Below are positions 6,265-52,819 of a stretch of 64,000 nt of DNA, one piece after another (the stretch's first letter is position 1; every line of letters starts with the position of its first letter). The DNA comes from Candidatus Poribacteria bacterium (GTDB taxonomy: Bacteria; Poribacteria; WGA-4E; WGA-3G). Under the pieces are notes generated by a model. The model saw only the letters and a program-made list of their open reading frames with translations, did not search any database and was not told the origin of the DNA. The position numbers and the translations under genes are program-made. The stretch lies in assembly GCA_026706025.1 (NCBI GenBank), contig JAPOZO010000030.1, positions 29,844-93,843 of the forward strand, given 5' to 3'.

Positions 6265-8311
6265 AAGATTGTTCCTGTTGTTCGTGATTTTGGCTATAGT
6301 TGTTGGCGGCGTAGTATTTTTTAAGGTGCGTCCACAGTATCAAGCTTTGGGCCCGCAGGAGTTCGCGAAACTTCCCGAAAAGCCTGCGCTCCTTGCTAAG
6401 TTTAACCACGGGCCCAGTCCTATTAACTCTGTGGTATTTTCACCAGTCGATGCTTCTCTTGTCGCAAGTGCAGGTATTCATGGAATCATAAAGTTGTGGA
6501 ACATAAATAACACAGACCTTCCATTGAGGATCCTCAATCACCCCGCAAATTATACATTCATTGCTTTTTCTCCAAATGGAGAATTGCTGGCGAGTGCAGG
6601 CAATGGTGAGGAACTCATTTTGTGGGATGTCGCCTCAGGAAACAAAGTTAACACTATTAAGGGCAATTTTGGATCTTTTGCCTTTTCGCCAGATGGAGAT
6701 CAATTGGCGACATCCTATAAGTATGGAAAGGAAGTGAAACTCTGGAATATTCGGAATCCAAAGAAAATCATTGAGGTGGCTACCCTACCCTTCGATGAAG
6801 CAAAAAGAGTCAATAGTTATACATGTACAGTAGACATTTCACCAGATGGAAAATTGATTGTTATTGGATACGCGAACGGAACGGTGAACGTTTGGAATCT
6901 ACAGACGAAACAACATGTAAAAACATTGAAAACGACTTTTGCAGAGATGGAGATTCTCAAGTTTTCACCAAACAACAGATTCTTGGTATGTAGCGGCCCT
7001 GAGGGTTACATGCGTGACGGTATCCGCTATAAAGGGAACACCGCTATGCGCTACATTATGTGGTCATTACCTGAGTGGCAACGCCACAACGAGGTGCAAA
7101 ATGGATATATTGAAAATTTTACCATTTCGCCTGATGGGAAAATGTGTGCCCGGGCAAATACATATCTTGGGTTTCTTTCTCGTAGAGGAGTAGAAATCTG
7201 GTCAACTGCAAGTGGAGCAACGATTACCTCACTACCGACCAAGGCGCGGGATGTTGCCTTCTCACCCGATGGAAAAATGCTCGCGACTGCTGGTGAAGAG
7301 GGTATTCTCCGGTTGTGGGAATTTACACCGCAGCAATTAACATATACCACTGCGCCTGCTGATGTTATACGGATAGTTTACCTCCTGCCAAAGGATAAAG
7401 AACCACGGATAGGTATCTCGAAGAAACTGGACAAATCAATAAGAAAGGTTCAAGACTTCTATGCCAAAGAGATGGAACGCCACGGATTCGGTAGAAAAAC
7501 TTTTGGGTTTGAAACGGATGAAAATGGCAGGGTAAAGATTTATTTTCTTAAAGAGGGACAAATTATACATTATGATATGTCAAACGGTATCTGGCTCGCA
7601 GTAGCAGAGGACCTCTCAGGATCTATTGCTTGGGGACCGAAAATAATCGATGCCGGTCATAACCAGACATTTGCATACCCAAAAAATAATGTGGACCGTG
7701 TTAAAGACAATATCTGGATGGACGGAATTGAAGGTGCCTTTCATGGTAAACTTATATTTTATGCCGCTAAAGTTTTCAATTGGAAAACTATCGCGTATAC
7801 ACTTAGGGAGGCATTCGGTTTGTCCTATGATGATTTTGTATATGAGCCAGACGCTTTGAAACGTTTCTTGTCCCGTGTAAACAGTATGATGCCTTGGGAA
7901 ATAGACAGGGAAAAATTGTCCAAATGTGAAGCCGAGTGGTTGGATAAGAGTCGTTTCTTTAACCCAAACCAACCCTTCTTTAATAGATGCCCCGAAATTG
8001 AAATGAGTGTGTCCGAACCGGATGTAAAAAATTCGCGACGTTTTCAATTTGAGATTGCAGATGAAGATGGGATATATCAAGCACAACTGTTTGTATCAAG
8101 ACAAGTTCAGAATCGATATATGACATGGCAAAGGGAGTTTCATGAAGGATGTCATCTGTTAAACGGTAAAAAGAGGGCTATGGTTGAATTTAGGATAACT
8201 GATGCCGCTGTCAAAGATGTTGAACTTCGGATGATTGATATATTTGGTAACATTGCGTCAAGAAAATTCCAAATTAAGGACGAGACATCGGAATCACCAG
8301 AAAACCTTTAG
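6254..8311 (+). CDS. Membrane-anchored WD40 propeller with a degenerate (probably inactive) metzincin domain
   Basis: 685 residues with the same plan as the first and fourth copies: hydrophobic anchor (~5-23), WD40 blades, then the protease-like domain. At the position of the zinc motif it reads Y515-TLREAFGLSYD. All three zinc-ligand His and the catalytic Glu are replaced (H to Y, E to T, H to E, H to Y), and the Met-turn is not recognisable. The remaining fold signals, such as the FNWKTIA lead-in and the later EAEWLDKSRFFNPNQPFF block, are conserved, so this is a pseudoenzyme rather than random decay. The start ATG follows GGAGGG inside the previous gene. A role as decoy, regulator or substrate-binding partner is inference. 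Confidence 0.85.
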   Translation: MKSKRLFLLFVILAIVVGGVVFFKVRPQYQALGPQEFAKLPEKPALLAKFNHGPSPINSVVFSPVDASLVASAGIHGIIKLWNINNTDLPLRILNHPANYTFIAFSPNGELLASAGNGEELILWDVASGNKVNTIKGNFGSFAFSPDGDQLATSYKYGKEVKLWNIRNPKKIIEVATLPFDEAKRVNSYTCTVDISPDGKLIVIGYANGTVNVWNLQTKQHVKTLKTTFAEMEILKFSPNNRFLVCSGPEGYMRDGIRYKGNTAMRYIMWSLPEWQRHNEVQNGYIENFTISPDGKMCARANTYLGFLSRRGVEIWSTASGATITSLPTKARDVAFSPDGKMLATAGEEGILRLWEFTPQQLTYTTAPADVIRIVYLLPKDKEPRIGISKKLDKSIRKVQDFYAKEMERHGFGRKTFGFETDENGRVKIYFLKEGQIIHYDMSNGIWLAVAEDLSGSIAWGPKIIDAGHNQTFAYPKNNVDRVKDNIWMDGIEGAFHGKLIFYAAKVFNWKTIAYTLREAFGLSYDDFVYEPDALKRFLSRVNSMMPWEIDREKLSKCEAEWLDKSRFFNPNQPFFNRCPEIEMSVSEPDVKNSRRFQFEIADEDGIYQAQLFVSRQVQNRYMTWQREFHEGCHLLNGKKRAMVEFRITDAAVKDVELRMIDIFGNIASRKFQIKDETSESPENL

Positions 8312-44865: not shown

Positions 44866-45723
44866 ATGCTCACGCAAGAACAGTGTGATTTTTACGACGA
44901 AAACGGCTATATCGGTGTTGAAGCAGTACTAACGACGGAAGAAGTCGTCGATCTCCAACGAGTTACCGATGAATTCGTTGAGAAATCAAGAGAAGTGACC
45001 GAACATACTGACATCTTTGATCTGGAACCCGGGCATACCGCCGCGAACCCACGCGTGCGGCGTATCAAAAGCCCCGCGCTTTACCACACCGTCTACGACC
45101 AAACCTTACGGCACCCCAAGATACTGGATATCGTGGAACAACTTATCGGATCCGGCGTTCGGTATAACGGGCATAAATTGAATATGAAATATCCAGAATT
45201 CGGAAGCCCGGTCGAATGGCATCAGGATTGGGCGTTTTATCCCCACACCAATGACGATCTGCTCGCAGTTGGGATCGTCATTGACGATATGACTGTGGAG
45301 AACGGCGCGCTGATGATAATTCCAGGGTCTCATAAGGGACCGACTTTAGATCATCACCAAGATGGTGCTTTTATCGGGGCAGTGACAGATCCTGATTTCA
45401 CGCCAGAAGATGCTGTGCCTGTTGAGTTGAAGGCAGGTGGGATTACAATCCATCATGTTCGGGCGTTACACGGTTCTGCCCCGAATACCTCTGACAAACC
45501 GCGACGCTTACTGCTCTTCCAGTATTGCGCGGTAGATGCCTGGCCCCTGAAGGGAATTCCAGATTGGGATACTTTCAACGACTTCATTATTCGTGGCGAA
45601 TCGACAAATCAACCCCGTATGGTAGCTGCACCCGTGCGTATGCCGGAACCGTACGCGGAACTAAAAGGCTCTATCTACGAAGTTCAATCTTTACTTGAAA
45701 ACCCACTTTACACGAACAAGTAG
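44866..45723 (+). CDS. Phytanoyl-CoA dioxygenase (PhyH) family protein
   Basis: 285 residues. Fe(II)/2-oxoglutarate oxygenase: FYDENGYIGVEAVL opening, iron ligands H119-x-D121 in EWHQDWAFYP and H202 in RALHGSAPNTSDKPRRLL, the Arg pair after it binding 2-oxoglutarate. This is the best match to the family consensus among the three PhyH genes here. Strong GGAGGAG ribosome-binding site and its own promoter. The gene is followed by a hairpin terminator region. Substrate unknown. Confidence 0.92.
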   Translation: MLTQEQCDFYDENGYIGVEAVLTTEEVVDLQRVTDEFVEKSREVTEHTDIFDLEPGHTAANPRVRRIKSPALYHTVYDQTLRHPKILDIVEQLIGSGVRYNGHKLNMKYPEFGSPVEWHQDWAFYPHTNDDLLAVGIVIDDMTVENGALMIIPGSHKGPTLDHHQDGAFIGAVTDPDFTPEDAVPVELKAGGITIHHVRALHGSAPNTSDKPRRLLLFQYCAVDAWPLKGIPDWDTFNDFIIRGESTNQPRMVAAPVRMPEPYAELKGSIYEVQSLLENPLYTNK

Positions 45724-45832
45724 TAGCGGGTTTCATAGCGAGAAATTTTTGTGCTTTGCCGATAGCCCTTCTAAAATAGTTGGGTTGTTTGTAGAACAAG
45801 TCTCGTTAGATATACCCTTCACATGAAGAAAA

Positions 45833-45858
45833 ATGGCGAGGTATCAAAACCTCGCCAT
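45833..45858 (-). terminator. Hairpin terminator between PhyH and the HMA gene group
   Basis: ATGGCGAGGT and ACCTCGCCAT form a perfect 10-bp stem over 6 nt. Read on the minus strand the stem is followed by a U-rich run (UUUUCUUC), so it would end the minus-strand HMA transcript; it may also slow the plus-strand one. Confidence 0.65.
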
Positions 45859-45911
45859 ATATTATATAAGGTTAGTTAGGTGTAAGCCTTGTAGTAGATA
45901 GTGATCATATA

Positions 45912-46406
45912 CTACTTATTCAGTCCAAGTTTACGAATGTGGTACGTCCCTTTCTGAGCTTTTATATTTTCTACACTCGCCTCAAAGCCTGTGTCTTTGA
46001 CCGCCTCAATTAACGCTGCTTTTACGCGTGCAGACATTGCATCGTTAACACCATGCACAGGATCTGCTCCTGGGAGTGCCCGAACCGTAACCTTAAAATA
46101 CTTTGGCTCATCAGGCTTGAAATGCCATCCGATTTCATTCTCTAAAACAGATTTGCTTGTTTCACTACTGATTTTGCTAAGTGGAAACCAGGCTGTCGTT
46201 ACCTTGTAGATGGCATCATCAATGACCACGGGATCCATCTTTTCCAGCGACTTCATGACACTGAAGGTAGAAGTGAACCGGGGCATTCCAGTCACTGACA
46301 GCGTGACATCAAAACCTGTGTTACCCATTTTTTCCGAAGTGCATCCGAGTGCAAAAACAAATGGCACAACGAAAAAACAGAGAAATAATCGATTTAACCG
46401 GCGCAT
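45912..46406 (-). CDS. HMA-like lipoprotein without the metal-binding motif
   Basis: 164 residues. Lipoprotein signal (lipobox FALGC, Cys about residue 22). The mature part opens FDVTLSVTGMPRFTSTFSV, which parallels the xVTLSVTGMTUxxC strand-loop of the neighbouring selenoproteins, but no Cys or Sec is present in the loop. It ends VKAALIEAVKDTGFEASVENIK, again similar to HMA C-terminal helices. The middle (~65-120) is a longer insert. It lies 24 bp after the second Sec-HMA lipoprotein, probably in the same operon, with a terminator behind it. It could be a structural partner that lost metal binding. Weak ribosome-binding site. Confidence 0.65.
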   Translation of the reverse strand: MRRLNRLFLCFFVVPFVFALGCTSEKMGNTGFDVTLSVTGMPRFTSTFSVMKSLEKMDPVVIDDAIYKVTTAWFPLSKISSETSKSVLENEIGWHFKPDEPKYFKVTVRALPGADPVHGVNDAMSARVKAALIEAVKDTGFEASVENIKAQKGTYHIRKLGLNK

Positions 46407-46430
46407 TTCAATCTACACAACCTAAAATTT

Positions 46431-46805
46431 TTAGTTAGCAACTGTTGCCTTAAAGCGTGGGTCCGCTTCAACAGCCTTAACTAAAGCATCTGTTGTAACT
46501 TTACCCTTCTCAATCTTTACCACAGCCTTGTTCTCATCCATAGAAACACTGACAACTTCAGAGACACCGGTAACCTTTGTAAGTGCATCCTGCACCGCAC
46601 TGGTACACCCGCCTCACGTCATACCGGTTACAGTAAGCGTCACTTCTTCAATGCTTACTGCTGCCGTTTGGGTTGGCGTTTCTGTCGCTTCTTCTGCCGT
46701 TTGGCTTGGTGTTTCTGCTGGTTTCTTTGACGAGTCTGCGCAAGCGAAAACAAATAAAAGTGCCGCAAAGCAGACAAATAGCATGCTCACGTTTAAATGA
46801 CGCAT
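46431..46805 (-). CDS. Predicted selenoprotein: HMA-domain lipoprotein with UxxC metal site
   Basis: 124 residues if the in-frame UGA at 46614-46616 is read as selenocysteine (U64). Lipoprotein signal (lipobox VFAC, Cys22), a Thr/Ala/Glu-rich linker, then one heavy-metal-associated domain TLTVTGMT-U-GGCTSAVQDAL...VTTDALVKAVEADPRFKATVAN, with Sec in place of the first Cys of GMTCxxC. The frame continues 60 codons past the UGA with full HMA homology to a TAA stop, which excludes a chance read-through. A perfect 5-bp hairpin with GGA loop begins 18 nt after the UGA. Expected role: periplasmic binding of a soft metal or thiol/selenol redox chemistry. AAGGGG precedes the ATG. Confidence 0.85.
46583..46595 (-). 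promoter_or_regulatory. SECIS-like hairpin downstream of UGA at 46614-46616
   Basis: On the minus strand GTGCA-GGA-TGCAC, a perfect 5-bp stem with a loop starting GG, 23 nt between the UGA and the loop. Matches the bacterial SECIS rule of a small apical loop with a G among its first bases within about 16-37 nt. Confidence 0.75.
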
Positions 46806-46932
46806 AAGTTTATTCCCCTTATTTGTAAAAAGCGAACTTCCGATCGCGCCCTTTAATTTTATCTCTAATGAATTAAACTATATCCTGTTGAGGACGCAAA
46901 GGAAATATGATTCGCTCTTCAACTCATATAGA

Positions 46933-46954
46933 AAGGGCGGACAAATCCGCCCTT
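46933..46954 (-). terminator. Terminator after the first Sec-HMA lipoprotein
   Basis: AAGGGCGGA / TCCGCCCTT form a 9-bp stem over a 4-nt loop, 12 nt after the stop codon of the gene ending at 46967, followed on the minus strand by TCTATATG. It may only partly stop transcription into the next HMA gene. Confidence 0.55.
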
Positions 46955-46966
46955 CGCTCTATGCCA

Positions 46967-47266
46967 CTAATTGGCGACCGTCGCCTTAAAGCGCGGATCT
47001 GCTTCAACAGCCTTAATCAAGGCATCAGTTGTAACTTTCCCCTTTTTAACTTCCACCACAGCTGTGTTGTTATCCATAGAAACGCTGATAACCTTAGAGA
47101 CACCGGTGACCTTCGTGAGTGCATCCTGCACCGCACTGGTACAATTGCCTCAGGTCATTCCCGTCACATCGAGCGTTACTTCTTCAATCCGATCGCCCAG
47201 CAATCCACAACCGAGTATGAACGCGAAAGCAATCAGACAAACCAGCGATAATTTGGCGATATACAT
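46967..47266 (-). CDS. Predicted selenoprotein: small HMA-domain lipoprotein with UxxC metal site
   Basis: 99 residues with an in-frame UGA at 47150-47152 (U39). Starts with a lipoprotein signal (lipobox ILGC, Cys20), then directly one HMA domain: VTLDVTGMT-U-GNCTSAVQDALTKVTGV...DALIKAVEADPRFKATVAN, ending in TAG. Closely related to the 46431-46805 protein but with almost no linker. Strong AGGAGG ribosome-binding site. The UGA-following hairpin GTGCA-GGA-TGCAC is identical to that of the other Sec-HMA genes. Divergent from the five-domain gene (246-bp gap). No conventional ORF finder would call it, because the part before the UGA is only 38 codons. Metal chaperone or redox function is inference. 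Confidence 0.85.
47119..47131 (-). promoter_or_regulatory. SECIS-like hairpin downstream of UGA at 47150-47152
   Basis: GTGCA-GGA-TGCAC on the minus strand, same spacing (18 nt to the stem) and sequence as in the other Sec-HMA codons. Confidence 0.75.
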
Positions 47267-47349
47267 CCGGGTAACCTCCTTGAATTAGTTATTTGTTATT
47301 CTAACATGTATTAATTTTTTTTACAACATTTTTTAAGAATGGATTTAAC

Positions 47350-47378
47350 TTGACTTTTTGTTTTCTGTACCGTAAGAT
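47350..47378 (+). promoter_or_regulatory. Sigma-70 promoter of the five-domain Sec-HMA gene
   Basis: TTGACT (47350-47355), 17-bp spacer, TAAGAT (47373-47378). The predicted leader of about 125 nt contains a hairpin TGCACGGA...TTCGTGCA (47472-47493) immediately ahead of the AAAAAGGAG ribosome-binding site, a possible translational control element. Confidence 0.55.
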
Positions 47379-47511
47379 TAATGTAGATTATCAAACAATT
47401 GGATCCAACGCAAGTTCTCAAAATGCTTCTGTAGCCGTAAAAGGTTTTGAAACTTGCAAACGAACAAAAACTGCACGGAGAATCCTTCGTGCAAAAAGGA
47501 GTTTTGAAAAA

Positions 47512-48732
47512 ATGAAACACAGAATTCATCTTGCCTTCCTTGTGGCATTGCTCGTTGTGGGAGCGTTTTTCGTTGTTAACGCCTATCCTACCGATGAAAC
47601 GCAGCCTGCCGATGCAGAGAAGCCAGCCACTGAGGAAGTGACGCTCAGTGTAACCGGCATGACATGAGGCGGCTGTACCAGTCAGGTGCAGGATGCACTC
47701 AGCAAAGTCGCCGGTGTCTCTGAAGTCGTCAGCGTTTCTCGGGATACAAACACCGCTGTTGTGAAGGTAGCGAAGGGAAAAGTAGCAACAGAGGCGTTAG
47801 TCAAAGCCATTGAATCCGTTGAAGGACGCAACTTTTCGGCTACTCCCATCGAGGAAGTGACACTTAGTGTAACCGGTATGACGTGAGGTGGCTGTACCAG
47901 CGCAGTGCAGGATGCACTCAGTAAGGTTGCCGGTGTTTCTGAAGTGGTAAGCGTTTCTATGGATACGAACACGGCTGTTGTGAAAGTGCCAAAAGGGAAA
48001 GTAGCATCAGAGGCGTTAGTCAAGGCTGTTGAGTCCGTTAAAGGGCGCAACTTTTCCGCTGCTCCCATTGAGGAAGTAGCACTTAGTATTACCGGTATGA
48101 CGTGAGGTGGCTGTGTCAGCGCAGTGCAGGATGCACTCAGTAAGGTTGCCGGTATCTCTGAAGTGGTAAGCGTTTCTATGGATACGAACACGGCTGTTGT
48201 GAAAGTGCCAAAAGGGAAAGTAGCATCAGAGGCGTTAGTCAAGGCTGTTGAGTCCGTTAAAGGGCGCAACTTTTCCGCTGCTCCCATTGAGGAAGTAGCA
48301 CTTAGTATTACCGGTATGACGTGAGGTGGCTGTGTCAGCGCAGTGCAGGATGCACTCAGTAAGGTTGCCGGTATCTCTGAAGTGGTAAGCGTTTCTATGG
48401 ATACGAACACGGCTGTTGTGAAAGTGCCAAGAGGAAAGGTCGCATCAGAGGTGTTAGTCAAGGCTGTTGAGTCCGTTGAAGGGCGCAACTTTTCCGCTGT
48501 GGTCATTGAAGAAGTGACGCTTAGTGTCACTGGCATGGTGTGTGATGCGTGTCCGAGCAAGGTACAGGATGCACTCAGTAAGGTTGCTGGTGTCTCTGAA
48601 GTAGTAAGCGTTTCTACCGACACAAACACCGCTGTTGTGAAAATCACACAAGGGAAAGTGACAACAGAGGCGTTAATCAAGGCGATTGCAGCGATTGAAG
48701 GCGGGAGTTTTAAGGCGCAAGTCGCGCATTAG
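47512..48732 (+). CDS. Predicted multi-Sec selenoprotein: exported protein of five tandem HMA domains, four with UxxC
   Basis: 406 residues when four in-frame UGA codons are read as selenocysteine (U52, U125, U198, U271; codons at 47665, 47884, 48103 and 48322). Signal peptide ending VVNA (~1-24), short acidic linker, then five HMA domains repeating every 73 residues. Each begins VTLSVTGMT or close, followed by U-GGC in domains 1-4 and by C344-DAC in domain 5, then QDALSKVAGVSEVVSVS and a KALI/VKA helix. The frame is unbroken apart from the UGAs and ends in TAG. Each UGA has the same hairpin 18 nt downstream. Probably periplasmic, binding up to five soft-metal ions or cycling Se-S bonds. Start: AAAAAGGAG. 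An antisense ORF (47682-48680) is a shadow. Confidence 0.88.
47686..47698 (+). promoter_or_regulatory. SECIS-like hairpin 1 of the multi-Sec gene
   Basis: GTGCA-GGA-TGCAC, 18 nt after the UGA at 47665-47667 and 23 nt from UGA to loop. Confidence 0.75.
47905..47917 (+). promoter_or_regulatory. SECIS-like hairpin 2 of the multi-Sec gene
   Basis: GTGCA-GGA-TGCAC, same offset from the UGA at 47884-47886. Confidence 0.75.
48124..48136 (+). promoter_or_regulatory. SECIS-like hairpin 3 of the multi-Sec gene
   Basis: GTGCA-GGA-TGCAC, same offset from the UGA at 48103-48105. Confidence 0.75.
48343..48355 (+). promoter_or_regulatory. SECIS-like hairpin 4 of the multi-Sec gene
   Basis: GTGCA-GGA-TGCAC, same offset from the UGA at 48322-48324. 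The equivalent site in the Cys-type domain (48562-48574) reads GTACA-GGA-TGCAC and cannot form the full stem. Confidence 0.75.
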
Positions 48733-48744
48733 AATTACATTACG

Positions 48745-48767
48745 GTGGGCGAGCATCGCTCGTCCAC
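48745..48767 (+). terminator. Hairpin after the multi-Sec gene
   Basis: GTGGGCGAGC and GCTCGTCCAC form a 10-bp stem (one G-U pair) over ATC, 12 nt after the stop codon. There is no T-run, so it could be a factor-dependent terminator or an mRNA-stabilising hairpin. Confidence 0.5.
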
Positions 48768-49071
48768 GCCTCATCTGGTATAAATTCAAGCAACTCATGT
48801 GCAAGTTGATGGTTGTGTATTTTCGGATGTGAAGCCCAATAATTTCTTAAAATTGAATGCCTCTATAATCCTTATATTGAATCAAAAAATCACCTTTTTC
48901 TTGACAAAAAGTGAGTTTGATTCCAGCGCGTAGGTTGGGTTGAACGGCGAGCTACTAAAAGTCGCATAGACCCGATGACTTTCGAGTGCCTCTACGGCAC
49001 GGGCGTTGGGCATTGATAGAACCCCCCTTTATCGGAAATCGAAAAAATATAACTTGCTAAAGTAAAAATGC
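48768..49071. repeat. Gene-free stretch with one isolated MITE end
   Basis: GTAGGTTGGGTTGAACGG at 48930-48947 is identical to both terminal inverted repeats of the complete element at 59220-59463, but no second end was found here. No gene was seen in this stretch. Confidence 0.55.
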
Positions 49072-49088
49072 TGTCGCATTTTGCGACA
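49072..49088. promoter_or_regulatory. 17-bp dyad TGTCGCATTTTGCGACA (distal copy)
   Basis: Perfect palindrome TGTCGCA-TTT-TGCGACA, centred about 219 bp upstream of the predicted sigma-54 start site. A likely enhancer site for a sigma-54 activator. Confidence 0.7.
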
Positions 49089-49143
49089 CAACACGCCGGA
49101 ACCTGCTTTATCAAGGCTCCGAAAGCCATATTGCTTCCAAACT

Positions 49144-49160
49144 TGTCGCATTTTGCGACA
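49144..49160. promoter_or_regulatory. 17-bp dyad TGTCGCATTTTGCGACA (proximal copy)
   Basis: Identical to the distal copy, 72 bp further on and centred about 147 bp upstream of the predicted start site. Confidence 0.7.
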
Positions 49161-49271
49161 CTCGCCGAAAAATAACTTTAAGCACCCCTATCACATCGCG
49201 AACAGCCTGGATCCCGCGTGCTGCCTTGACGGACAAAGTTATACCGGAACCGATAAGCACGTTTTCTCCGA

Positions 49272-50450: not shown

Positions 50451-50504
50451 ATGCGAAGGAAACAGTTTTATCAATTTTCAGTTGTAAAGGGTGTTGTCAA
50501 ATGA
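50451..50504 (+). CDS. 17-residue leader peptide overlapping the next gene
   Basis: ATG at 50451 after AAGGAG, reading MRRKQFYQFSVVKGVVK and ending in a TGA that shares ATGA with the next start codon. Its strong ribosome-binding site compared with the weaker one of the next gene suggests translational coupling. Too short to verify by homology. Confidence 0.4.
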   Translation: MRRKQFYQFSVVKGVVK

Positions 50505-51232
50505 AGAAGATCACTGCCTTTACTATATTGATAGGTTTGACACTGACCGTTGTCATATACTTCGGATACTTGAACCGAGAACCGCAGGCACCTATCGTCA
50601 TTTACAAAGCAACAACACCTCTACCCAAGACGGAAAACCGCACAGAAAAAACGTCAAATACGCAACAGGATACGCGGGCGGGTCGCCTATCCGAAACAGG
50701 GGAAATAACACAAGACGCGATCCATATTGAACCGGTGGATTTACCGCACCGCCTCAATGACTTCGGAAGCTTCAATGATCCGTTGGGTGAAACTGAAGTT
50801 ATACACGCTGAAAATGAGGGAATTCAGGCTGAATCGCCGTTTGGTTATGGTCCCTATCCAGAAGTACCCGCAGACTATCCTTGGCAACCGATCTGGACTT
50901 TATCTGACGAAGACCGCGCCCATTATGCTCAAGCGCATCCTGATGGTGAGCGCGGTATTGAATTAATGCAACGGGTCGGTATAAAGTTGTGGCAAATGGT
51001 GCAAAATTTTACAGGTATCGCTTATTCATCCAATGGTAGGGTATACCCGAATTTCCCGGATACTGTATATGTGGATGTACAGCAAACGGAAACAGGGACA
51101 TCTATATCCGTAACTGGAAGCTTTATATCTGAAGAAGATATGGAGTTGATAAAAAACGGCGGTACGCCCCCTGGCATAACAGTAAAAGATATGTCTGAAG
51201 GTATTGAACCTTTTAGTTTTCTCGATCTCTAA
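50501..51232 (+). CDS. Membrane-anchored or exported hypothetical protein
   Basis: 243 residues. N-terminal hydrophobic segment (~4-22), a Thr/Pro/Lys-rich linker with low complexity (~30-70), then a soluble part with Pro/Tyr-rich FGYGPYPEVPADYPWQPIW, SDEDRAHYAQAHPDGERGIELMQRVGIKLW and a beta-rich end (VYVDVQQTETGTSISVTGSF). The last half may be a small alpha/beta domain. No family recognised. The start overlaps the leader peptide's stop. Followed after 33 bp by another small exported protein. Confidence 0.65.
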   Translation: MKKITAFTILIGLTLTVVIYFGYLNREPQAPIVIYKATTPLPKTENRTEKTSNTQQDTRAGRLSETGEITQDAIHIEPVDLPHRLNDFGSFNDPLGETEVIHAENEGIQAESPFGYGPYPEVPADYPWQPIWTLSDEDRAHYAQAHPDGERGIELMQRVGIKLWQMVQNFTGIAYSSNGRVYPNFPDTVYVDVQQTETGTSISVTGSFISEEDMELIKNGGTPPGITVKDMSEGIEPFSFLDL

Positions 51233-52075: not shown

Positions 52076-52819
52076 TTACCGCCGATGCACATCTAAGAAC
52101 GTAAAGACTTTTTGGATCCGTTGGAGCTGCTTCTGCAACGCCGCAGCGCGCTCAAATTGTAGTGCCTCCGACGCACTATCCCGTTTGGAAACCAGACGCA
52201 CCTGGACTTTTTCATATTCTCCATCCAACAAATCGACGATATCTGTAATCATCTCTCCATAGTTTTCGCGCGTAATGAGTGCTGCACAGGGCGCATCGCA
52301 CCGTTTTAAGTCATACTGAAAACAGGCGCGAAATCCCGGGATTGGTGTAATCTCACCTTCGCACGTGCGAACCGGAAATATCCGCTGTAAAACGTCAATC
52401 GCCTCATCTGTCCAGCGCCGACTCGACAACGGTCCAAAATATCTCGCACCATCTTCTGGTTGGGTTTCGGACACACGATCAAGGCGCGGAAACGCCTCTC
52501 CAACGTCTATCCGAATGTACCAAGATGTCCTTCCATATTTCAGTGCGGTGTTATAGGAGGGTTGATATTCTTGGATCAGTCGCGATTCAAGGAAGAGGGC
52601 TTCCTGTTCTGAACGACAAATTTGATACCGGACATCTGTCGTCCATCGGATAAGCCGTTTGATTTTGCTTGGGCGGTTCTTAGTTTTGTGGAGATAAGAG
52701 CGCACCCGTTTCCGTAAACATTTCGCCTTGCCGATATAGAGGATCGTCCCCGTCGCACCACGAAAAAAGTAGACACCCGGATCCGATGGCACGTCGGCTA
52801 TCATTTCTTGGGTCAGCAT
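52076..52819 (-). CDS. GIY-YIG nuclease with UVR motif, Cho-like (UvrC N-terminal homologue)
   Basis: 247 residues. GIY-YIG endonuclease domain at ~1-95 (PGVYFFRGATGTILYIGKAK, with the R and the E of AEQ/SEQEALFLESRLIQEYQPSYN). This is followed by a Cys-containing segment (RTCEGEITPIPGFRACFQYDLKRCDAPCA, as in UvrC and Cho) and a UVR-type coiled segment near the C-terminus. It lacks the C-terminal RNase H-like nuclease and HhH domains of full UvrC (~600 residues), so it would make only the 3' incision, as Cho does. It may act in nucleotide-excision repair beside a separate UvrC. No truncation scar was seen. It overlaps no neighbour. Confidence 0.85.
   Translation of the reverse strand: MLTQEMIADVPSDPGVYFFRGATGTILYIGKAKCLRKRVRSYLHKTKNRPSKIKRLIRWTTDVRYQICRSEQEALFLESRLIQEYQPSYNTALKYGRTSWYIRIDVGEAFPRLDRVSETQPEDGARYFGPLSSRRWTDEAIDVLQRIFPVRTCEGEITPIPGFRACFQYDLKRCDAPCAALITRENYGEMITDIVDLLDGEYEKVQVRLVSKRDSASEALQFERAAALQKQLQRIQKVFTFLDVHRR

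Follow-up and report, generated by a model that had tools for sequence, protein, structure and literature searches.

Our analysis of a 64,000-nucleotide stretch of Candidatus Poribacteria DNA (the window; its genome is called G000 here, and other G numbers denote genomes of relatives) shows a gene with four in-frame UGA codons, which very likely encode selenocysteine (Sec). The encoded protein, exported by prediction, would bind soft metals through the Sec-x-x-Cys motifs of tandem HMA domains; we give this reading as a whole a probability of about two in three. The features of this gene, which we call the array, are as follows (window positions):

47512..48732, plus strand: poly-UGA HMA array gene, encoding 406 residues, with TAG as stop codon; signal peptide-like N-terminus, then five HMA domains (U,U,U,U,C)
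47497..47501, plus strand: RBS-like AGGAG, by sequence, before the ATG at 47512
47665..47667, plus strand: UGA 1, predicted Sec52
47884..47886, plus strand: UGA 2, predicted Sec125
48103..48105, plus strand: UGA 3, predicted Sec198
48322..48324, plus strand: UGA 4, predicted Sec271
47686..47698, plus strand: SECIS-like hairpin 1, GTGCA-GGA-TGCAC
47905..47917, plus strand: SECIS-like hairpin 2
48124..48136, plus strand: SECIS-like hairpin 3
48343..48355, plus strand: SECIS-like hairpin 4, whose GTG doubles as the start of a mechanical 129-aa ORF
48541..48574, plus strand: fifth domain with TGT (Cys) and a degenerate hairpin, GTACA-GGA-TGCAC, with one mismatch

An initial annotation of this DNA had placed UGAs at residues 52, 125, 198 and 271 of one frame, 219 bp apart, with a Cys in the fifth domain and an identical GTGCA-GGA-TGCAC at equal distance after every UGA, and on re-reading each of these statements was exact. 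The frame has 407 codons and ends at a TAG at 48730, and its sole interruptions are the four TGAs; the other two plus-strand frames over the array contain 32 and 30 stops. The TGA takes the place of the first Cys of GMTCxxC in domains 1–4, and domain 5 has TGT there. With Cys scored for UGA, the Pfam HMA model (PF00403) matches the array in five stretches at 163.7 bits (cut-off 24.8, E 1.2e-48); the family's GMTCxxC motif has both Cys residues, and the first ligand of the array is UGA in four of its five domains. The second motif position is Cys in every domain of the arrays compared (those of relatives are described below), so the motif is UxxC and not UxxU. By eye the N-terminus, MKHRIHLAFLVALLVVGAFFVVNAYP, resembles a signal peptide, and the label 'periplasmic' in the initial annotation depends on that resemblance. 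Over the 170 bp compared, domains 2–4 are 92–97% identical to one another in DNA sequence, which fits a recent duplication of a UGA domain; domain 1 is 78–83% identical to domains 2–4, and the corresponding range for domain 5 is 75–79%. A short inverted repeat, TGCACG...CGTGCA (window 47472–47493), lies just 5' of the RBS-like sequence and is a possible regulatory hairpin.

The initial annotation also treated the array as isolated, and this did not hold up: two further UGA-containing HMA genes adjoin it, and Sec-HMA genes form a family across the Poribacteria genomes searched. The neighbouring genes that concern us here are:

46967..47266, minus strand: gene A, lipoprotein-like protein of 99 aa with a single HMA domain; its UGA is at 47152–47150, with the same hairpin as the array
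46431..46805, minus strand: gene B, lipoprotein-like protein of 124 aa with a single HMA domain; its UGA is at 46616–46614, with the same hairpin as the array
45912..46406, minus strand: gene C, lipoprotein-like protein of 164 aa whose HMA-like stretch has neither Cys nor Sec in the motif
44866..45723, plus strand: PhyH dioxygenase gene, a syntenic marker flanking the array
52076..52819, minus strand: GIY-YIG domain gene (40.6 bits, cut-off 22.6), the marker on the array's other side

Among the best 80 loci with relatives of gene A, the first 12 are Poribacteria assemblies. Gene C is kept downstream of A and B in two other loci (L063, where the copy is at 6855–7352, and L064); it has no Pfam or NCBIfam match, and its L063 relative belongs to no Pfam family. 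An Rfam search of window positions 45500–49200 gave a single sub-threshold chance match.

The hairpins bear on how the UGAs are read. In the array the stem starts 21 nt past the first base of the UGA, and the loop starts 23 nt past its last. HMA sites in the Poribacteria loci were taken where a Met is followed two residues on by Cys or a stop and then by the second Cys; a first set, from which sites with other stops nearby were also excluded, holds 90 UGA sites, 81 of them distinct over 48 nt. At fixed register all five pairs form in 71 of the 81 and the outer four pairs in every one, compared with means of 4.1 (maximum 13) and 8.0 (maximum 18), respectively, in 1000 synonymous recodings with the codon usage of the window. 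Valine in the hairpin is encoded by GTG at 80/81 sites, whereas in 14 genes of the window GTG makes up 93 of 479 Val codons; alanine is encoded by GCA at 80/81. The lone exception (L062) carries GTA on both sides, a compensatory change that alters the amino acid too. Loop positions 27–29 read GGA, GTC, GGC or GGG in all 81 sites, and a G in the apical loop is a feature of bacterial SECIS elements. In a wider set of 107 UGA sites from the Poribacteria loci, 94 have the five pairs and all have the outer four. Five pairs occur in none of the 11 Poribacteria Cys sites (12 rows, less a chance motif outside any HMA gene), two of which have the outer four. Loci from other organisms contributed 97 Cys HMA sites, again without a single case of five pairs. 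In the array, each of the four UGA domains has a local minimum free energy of −6.1 to −6.2 kcal/mol, against −0.8 for the Cys domain. Since the z-scores of the local hairpins against shuffles are only about −1, and 48-nt folds from the UGA often favour other structures, the evidence for the hairpin is its codon choice and register, not its energy. On this evidence, a SECIS-like hairpin is under selection at these sites.

The UGA itself is conserved with the site. Among 68 matches in 40 genomes (from the organism's own genome, genus, order and class), the homologous position is TGA in 63, a sense codon in five and TAA or TAG in none, which is more than chance. Two neighbouring UGA sites lie on one contig in 21 of 23 same-genus relatives; of the remainder, G006 has an array and G015 (78% complete) has no match at the threshold used. 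The arrays of G000 and G006 differ by 64 synonymous and 28 non-synonymous changes, a dN/dS of 0.12 over 846 bp that span three UGAs, showing that coding constraint extends beyond the UGAs. A further member of the family in G000 (contig C10, 33301–33504; L030) is a WD40-HMA protein, about 540 aa long, that begins with a signal-like sequence and has a C-terminal UGA-HMA domain. Its Sec codon is TGA in G000 and in most of the class relatives among the matches listed, and TGT or TGC in G034 and G033, so that Sec and Cys have been exchanged at this site.

TAA or TAG at the Sec position, which the initial annotation had counted as grounds for refutation, is thus absent from the 68 rows, and a later search found it once. 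A lipoprotein-like paralogue in the same genome (G000:C20:25968–26249, of what we call family D; L029, L143; L177, 5969–6250) has TAA there and retains a perfect hairpin. Its nearest relatives carry TGA in seven genomes (G042, G019, G020, G003, G002, G048 and G011; two short pieces in G019 and G020 stop before the site), and because TGA is kept in all seven and the hairpin in the TAA copy itself, that copy looks like one freshly decayed selenoprotein gene and does not overturn the reading of the others. Family D has at least seven copies in G002 (contigs C455, C181, C350, C359, C371, C411 and C144), one of which has TGA three times in frame, twice away from the ligand position, and has probably decayed. 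Unnamed proteins of the type 'FLRKYWLPLSVF...PIVIYK...GGHFHADGTW' adjoin family D Sec-HMA genes in several genomes (L172, L165, L177), with no Pfam family found for them, and a protein with the PIVIYK stretch common to these neighbours is encoded near the array, at window 50501–51232.

These two copies indicate that decay does occur in the HMA selenoprotein family, and one might suppose that the array too is a decaying gene, in which the UGAs are plain stops and what is left is a pseudogene or a series of short pieces, such as those that gene callers predict to start at the GTG behind each UGA. We consider this very unlikely for the array and have rejected a pseudogene there: dN/dS is 0.12 across three UGAs, the hairpin codons are locked, UGA is found at the same site in 63 of 68 rows, and the only stops inside four complete arrays are UGAs.

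The genome of the window has the machinery that decoding would require. The initial annotation had proposed a search for selA, selB, selC and selD in the same genome, and all four are present: selB (352.8 bits, cut-off 242.25) adjoins a tRNA-Sec gene (selC, 78.1 bits, anticodon TCA), and selA and selD score 604 and 359.8 bits. SelD carries a UGA of its own, in CAGUASK. A possible GCTCC-AGG-GGAGC hairpin comes after it, with five pairs and a 3-nt loop that starts 17 nt after the UGA. This candidate shares the 5-bp stem and 3-nt loop of the array hairpins; the minimum-energy fold of the stretch picks another pairing. At a threshold of E 1e-60, selA is missing from 13 of 82 genomes of the class, and nine of these 13 nevertheless have UGA-HMA rows (G004, G013, G037, G046, G047, G062, G064, G067 and G069). 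Seven of the nine are 73–90% complete, and we put the missing selA down to incomplete assemblies, though G047 (96%) and G069 (95%) are nearly complete. In theory, UGA could have been reassigned to Cys, Trp or Gly in this lineage, as in-frame UGAs in several gene families might suggest. We give this next to no credence and treat it as largely refuted, because UGA is tied to the hairpin, selA–selD and a UCA tRNA-Sec are present, and TGA still terminates four of 36 long window ORFs (hand-picked, mostly non-overlapping, from 102 mechanical ORFs), so that the general reading of UGA as another amino acid, against which the initial annotation had cautioned, is not what is seen. On this evidence, which is strong, the UGAs of the array are very likely read as Sec.

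Complete arrays are present in at least four of the 82 class genomes: that of G000, and U-U-U-C arrays in G006, G051 and G063, the last being from another genus. The C-terminal domain is a Cys domain in all four. They sit between the PhyH and GIY-YIG genes, with extra ORFs intervening in the window and in G063. In the loci of seven relatives that were compared, six have the A–B gene pair following the same GIY-YIG-type gene; pair and array were seen together only in G000. A Cys-only piece lies at a contig end in G062. In a tree of the domains (107 rows, 46 columns) the three arrays from this genus have their end domains together in one starred group, and with so few columns and 52 of 104 inner branches open the tree is too weak for dating the array.

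Eight predicted proteins in ENA (P0002–P0009, left out of the tree) have the conserved V of VQxAL as their first residue, with Cys domains following. This would be expected of a gene caller that stopped at a UGA in the first domain, and we infer such a UGA; they are probably truncated mosaic arrays, with Sec in the first domain and Cys in the later ones. Gene callers thus appear to cut Sec-HMA array proteins at UGA, so that these are probably mis-annotated as a rule. A tblastn search of plasmids returned 703 records, all below 60% identity, of which the ten listed are P-type ATPases. The array pattern had no match in viral contigs; one of the patterns used had Cys spelled out and so would overlook UGA.

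The AlphaFold2 model of the array (Cys for Sec; pLDDT 82, pTM 0.64) has five beta-alpha-beta-beta-alpha-beta domains. Of the single-domain structures among 50 listed PDB matches, oxidised MerP has the highest TM score (1osd; TM 0.91, rmsd 1.4), and the tandem matches at the top are pieces of ATP7B and CopA. At E 1e-9 the genome has twelve HMA matches: seven with UGA (four in the array, then gene A, gene B and the WD40-HMA protein), the one with TAA, and four with Cys (the array end domain, plus three that belong to a P-type ATPase or to the C28 pair). Leaving the TAA copy aside, UGA is found at seven of the eight sites in proteins whose start looks by eye like a signal or lipobox sequence, and at none of the three others. 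This concentration suggests an exported selenol–thiol pair for soft-metal capture, and we infer that the array product is an exported, MerP/CopZ-like soft-metal-binding array. A mercury operon is made less attractive by the distribution of MerT, which reaches E 0.001 in only two of the 82 class genomes and was not found in G000. As the ten window ORFs scanned include no transporter for metals, and G000 no MerT, copper is as likely a ligand as mercury.

A second use for such a protein deserves to be weighed. As a poly-selenoprotein it might have no metal role, its Sec-x-x-Cys selenenylsulfides passing electrons or repairing disulfides outside the cytoplasm. UxxC is listed among the redox-related motifs of prokaryotic selenoproteins, and most uncharacterised ones are thought to be redox proteins, in a 2026 review (PMC13188914). 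The oxidised form of the MerP match and the lack of a metal transporter among the ten window ORFs also lean this way. On the other hand, the fold is that of HMA and not of thioredoxin, the HMA metal motif is kept as GMTUxxC in every UGA domain of the arrays, and the same ten window ORFs include no known redox partner; we regard a redox role as unlikely, though well worth keeping in mind. That the Sec residues serve for selenium itself, in a reserve or carrier like animal selenoprotein P, might be supposed from the several Sec per chain and the predicted export. We think this highly improbable, given the retained HMA motif and second Cys, and given how little selenium P0002–P0009, whose visible domains have Cys, would hold, or arrays that have a Cys end domain in four cases out of four.

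If the array is indeed a soft-metal-binding selenoprotein, SelB with Sec-tRNA would bind each hairpin in turn as the ribosome reaches each UGA, and the chain would leave the cytoplasm by its N-terminal signal. Each domain would fold as MerP or CopZ does, and the Sec selenol and the second Cys thiol would hold a soft ion (Cu+, Ag+, Hg2+ or Cd2+) outside the cell membrane. The protein may then act as a multi-site buffer or relay for metal, in storage, delivery or detoxification. Reading four successive UGAs would lower the yield, and truncated products would be expected.

It seems to us slightly better than an even bet that Poribacteria have evolved a modular selenium amplifier, in which whole HMA domains are copied, each bringing along a UGA and, within the coding sequence, the SECIS hairpin that serves it. 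The protein so produced would be exported and, with as many as four Sec in a chain, would act as a poly-selenol sponge for metals. It would belong to a set, found across the lineage, whose HMA domains tend to have Sec when exported and Cys when cytoplasmic, and it would rank as the first in bacteria to have four Sec sites in tandem, each decoded on its own. With UGA and hairpin inside the copied domain, a duplication would add one Sec site and a swap with the Cys-type end domain would take one away, so that the number of Sec sites may shift by whole-domain events. Were four Sec residues indeed made, bacterial Sec insertion could be stacked in one message, and the array would be a natural ladder for measuring the efficiency of successive UGA reading. 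Arrays that vary in the number of Sec and Cys domains would in turn be natural swap experiments for the contribution of selenium to metal binding.

The known systems resemble the array in part. The best NCBIfam match is the CopZ family metallochaperone (NF047957), a model of a single Cys domain of 62 positions that matches all five array domains; the array reaches 209.3 bits (cut-off 85) only by summing repeats, and genes A and B score 56.5 and 54.3. The metal-binding (seleno)protein family UxxU_metal_bind (NF041115, earlier 'putative mercuric reductase') is small and HMA-type, with Sec at the first ligand like the array, and it too matches all five domains, at 180.1 bits (cut-off 95) again only through the sum of the repeats, with A at 51.4 and B at 53.6. 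According to the review, its motif is UxxU, with two Sec in a single domain of 74 positions (PMC13188914), whereas that of the array is UxxC. The MerT/CopZ fusion-like heavy metal transport selenoprotein (NF045683), filed by NCBI as a selenoprotein, shares the HMA/CopZ domain but is fused to MerT; the array scores 144.7 (cut-off 375), with its best stretch at model positions 145–226 of 235. MerP (TIGR02052) gives the array 147.3 bits against a cut-off of 92.55 by summing repeats. The single-domain genes A (45.8) and B (40) fall below that cut-off, G000 has no MerT, and no mer or cop neighbour is among the ten window ORFs scanned, so we do not place these proteins in that family.

MerP and CopZ in their Cys forms have the same fold and motif as an array domain, in a single domain with Cys only. 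The N-terminal HMA arrays of ATP7A and ATP7B are tandem domains on one chain, as here, and the best PDB sequence matches of the array are ATP7B-type chains; unlike the Sec array, they are attached to a P-type ATPase and have only Cys. Animal selenoprotein P has many Sec per chain and is exported, as predicted for the array, but its fold is unrelated. Its decoding is eukaryotic, from SECIS elements in the 3' UTR.

The selenoprotein table of the Global Ocean Sampling survey includes an entry for 'Mercuric transport protein MerP' with the figures 2, 1 and 0, and that entry names no motif and no array (PMC2398784). Among the matches listed from the open-licensed literature, none describes Sec arrays of HMA domains or Poribacteria selenoproteins. 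The vast majority of the 119 prokaryotic selenoprotein families have one Sec and a small subset two or three, according to the 2026 review, an upper range that the four predicted in the array would exceed (PMC13188914). HMA selenoproteins as such were already known (NF041115, NF045683 and the Global Ocean Sampling MerP), and what is new here is the tandem array, with one UGA-plus-hairpin cassette per domain.
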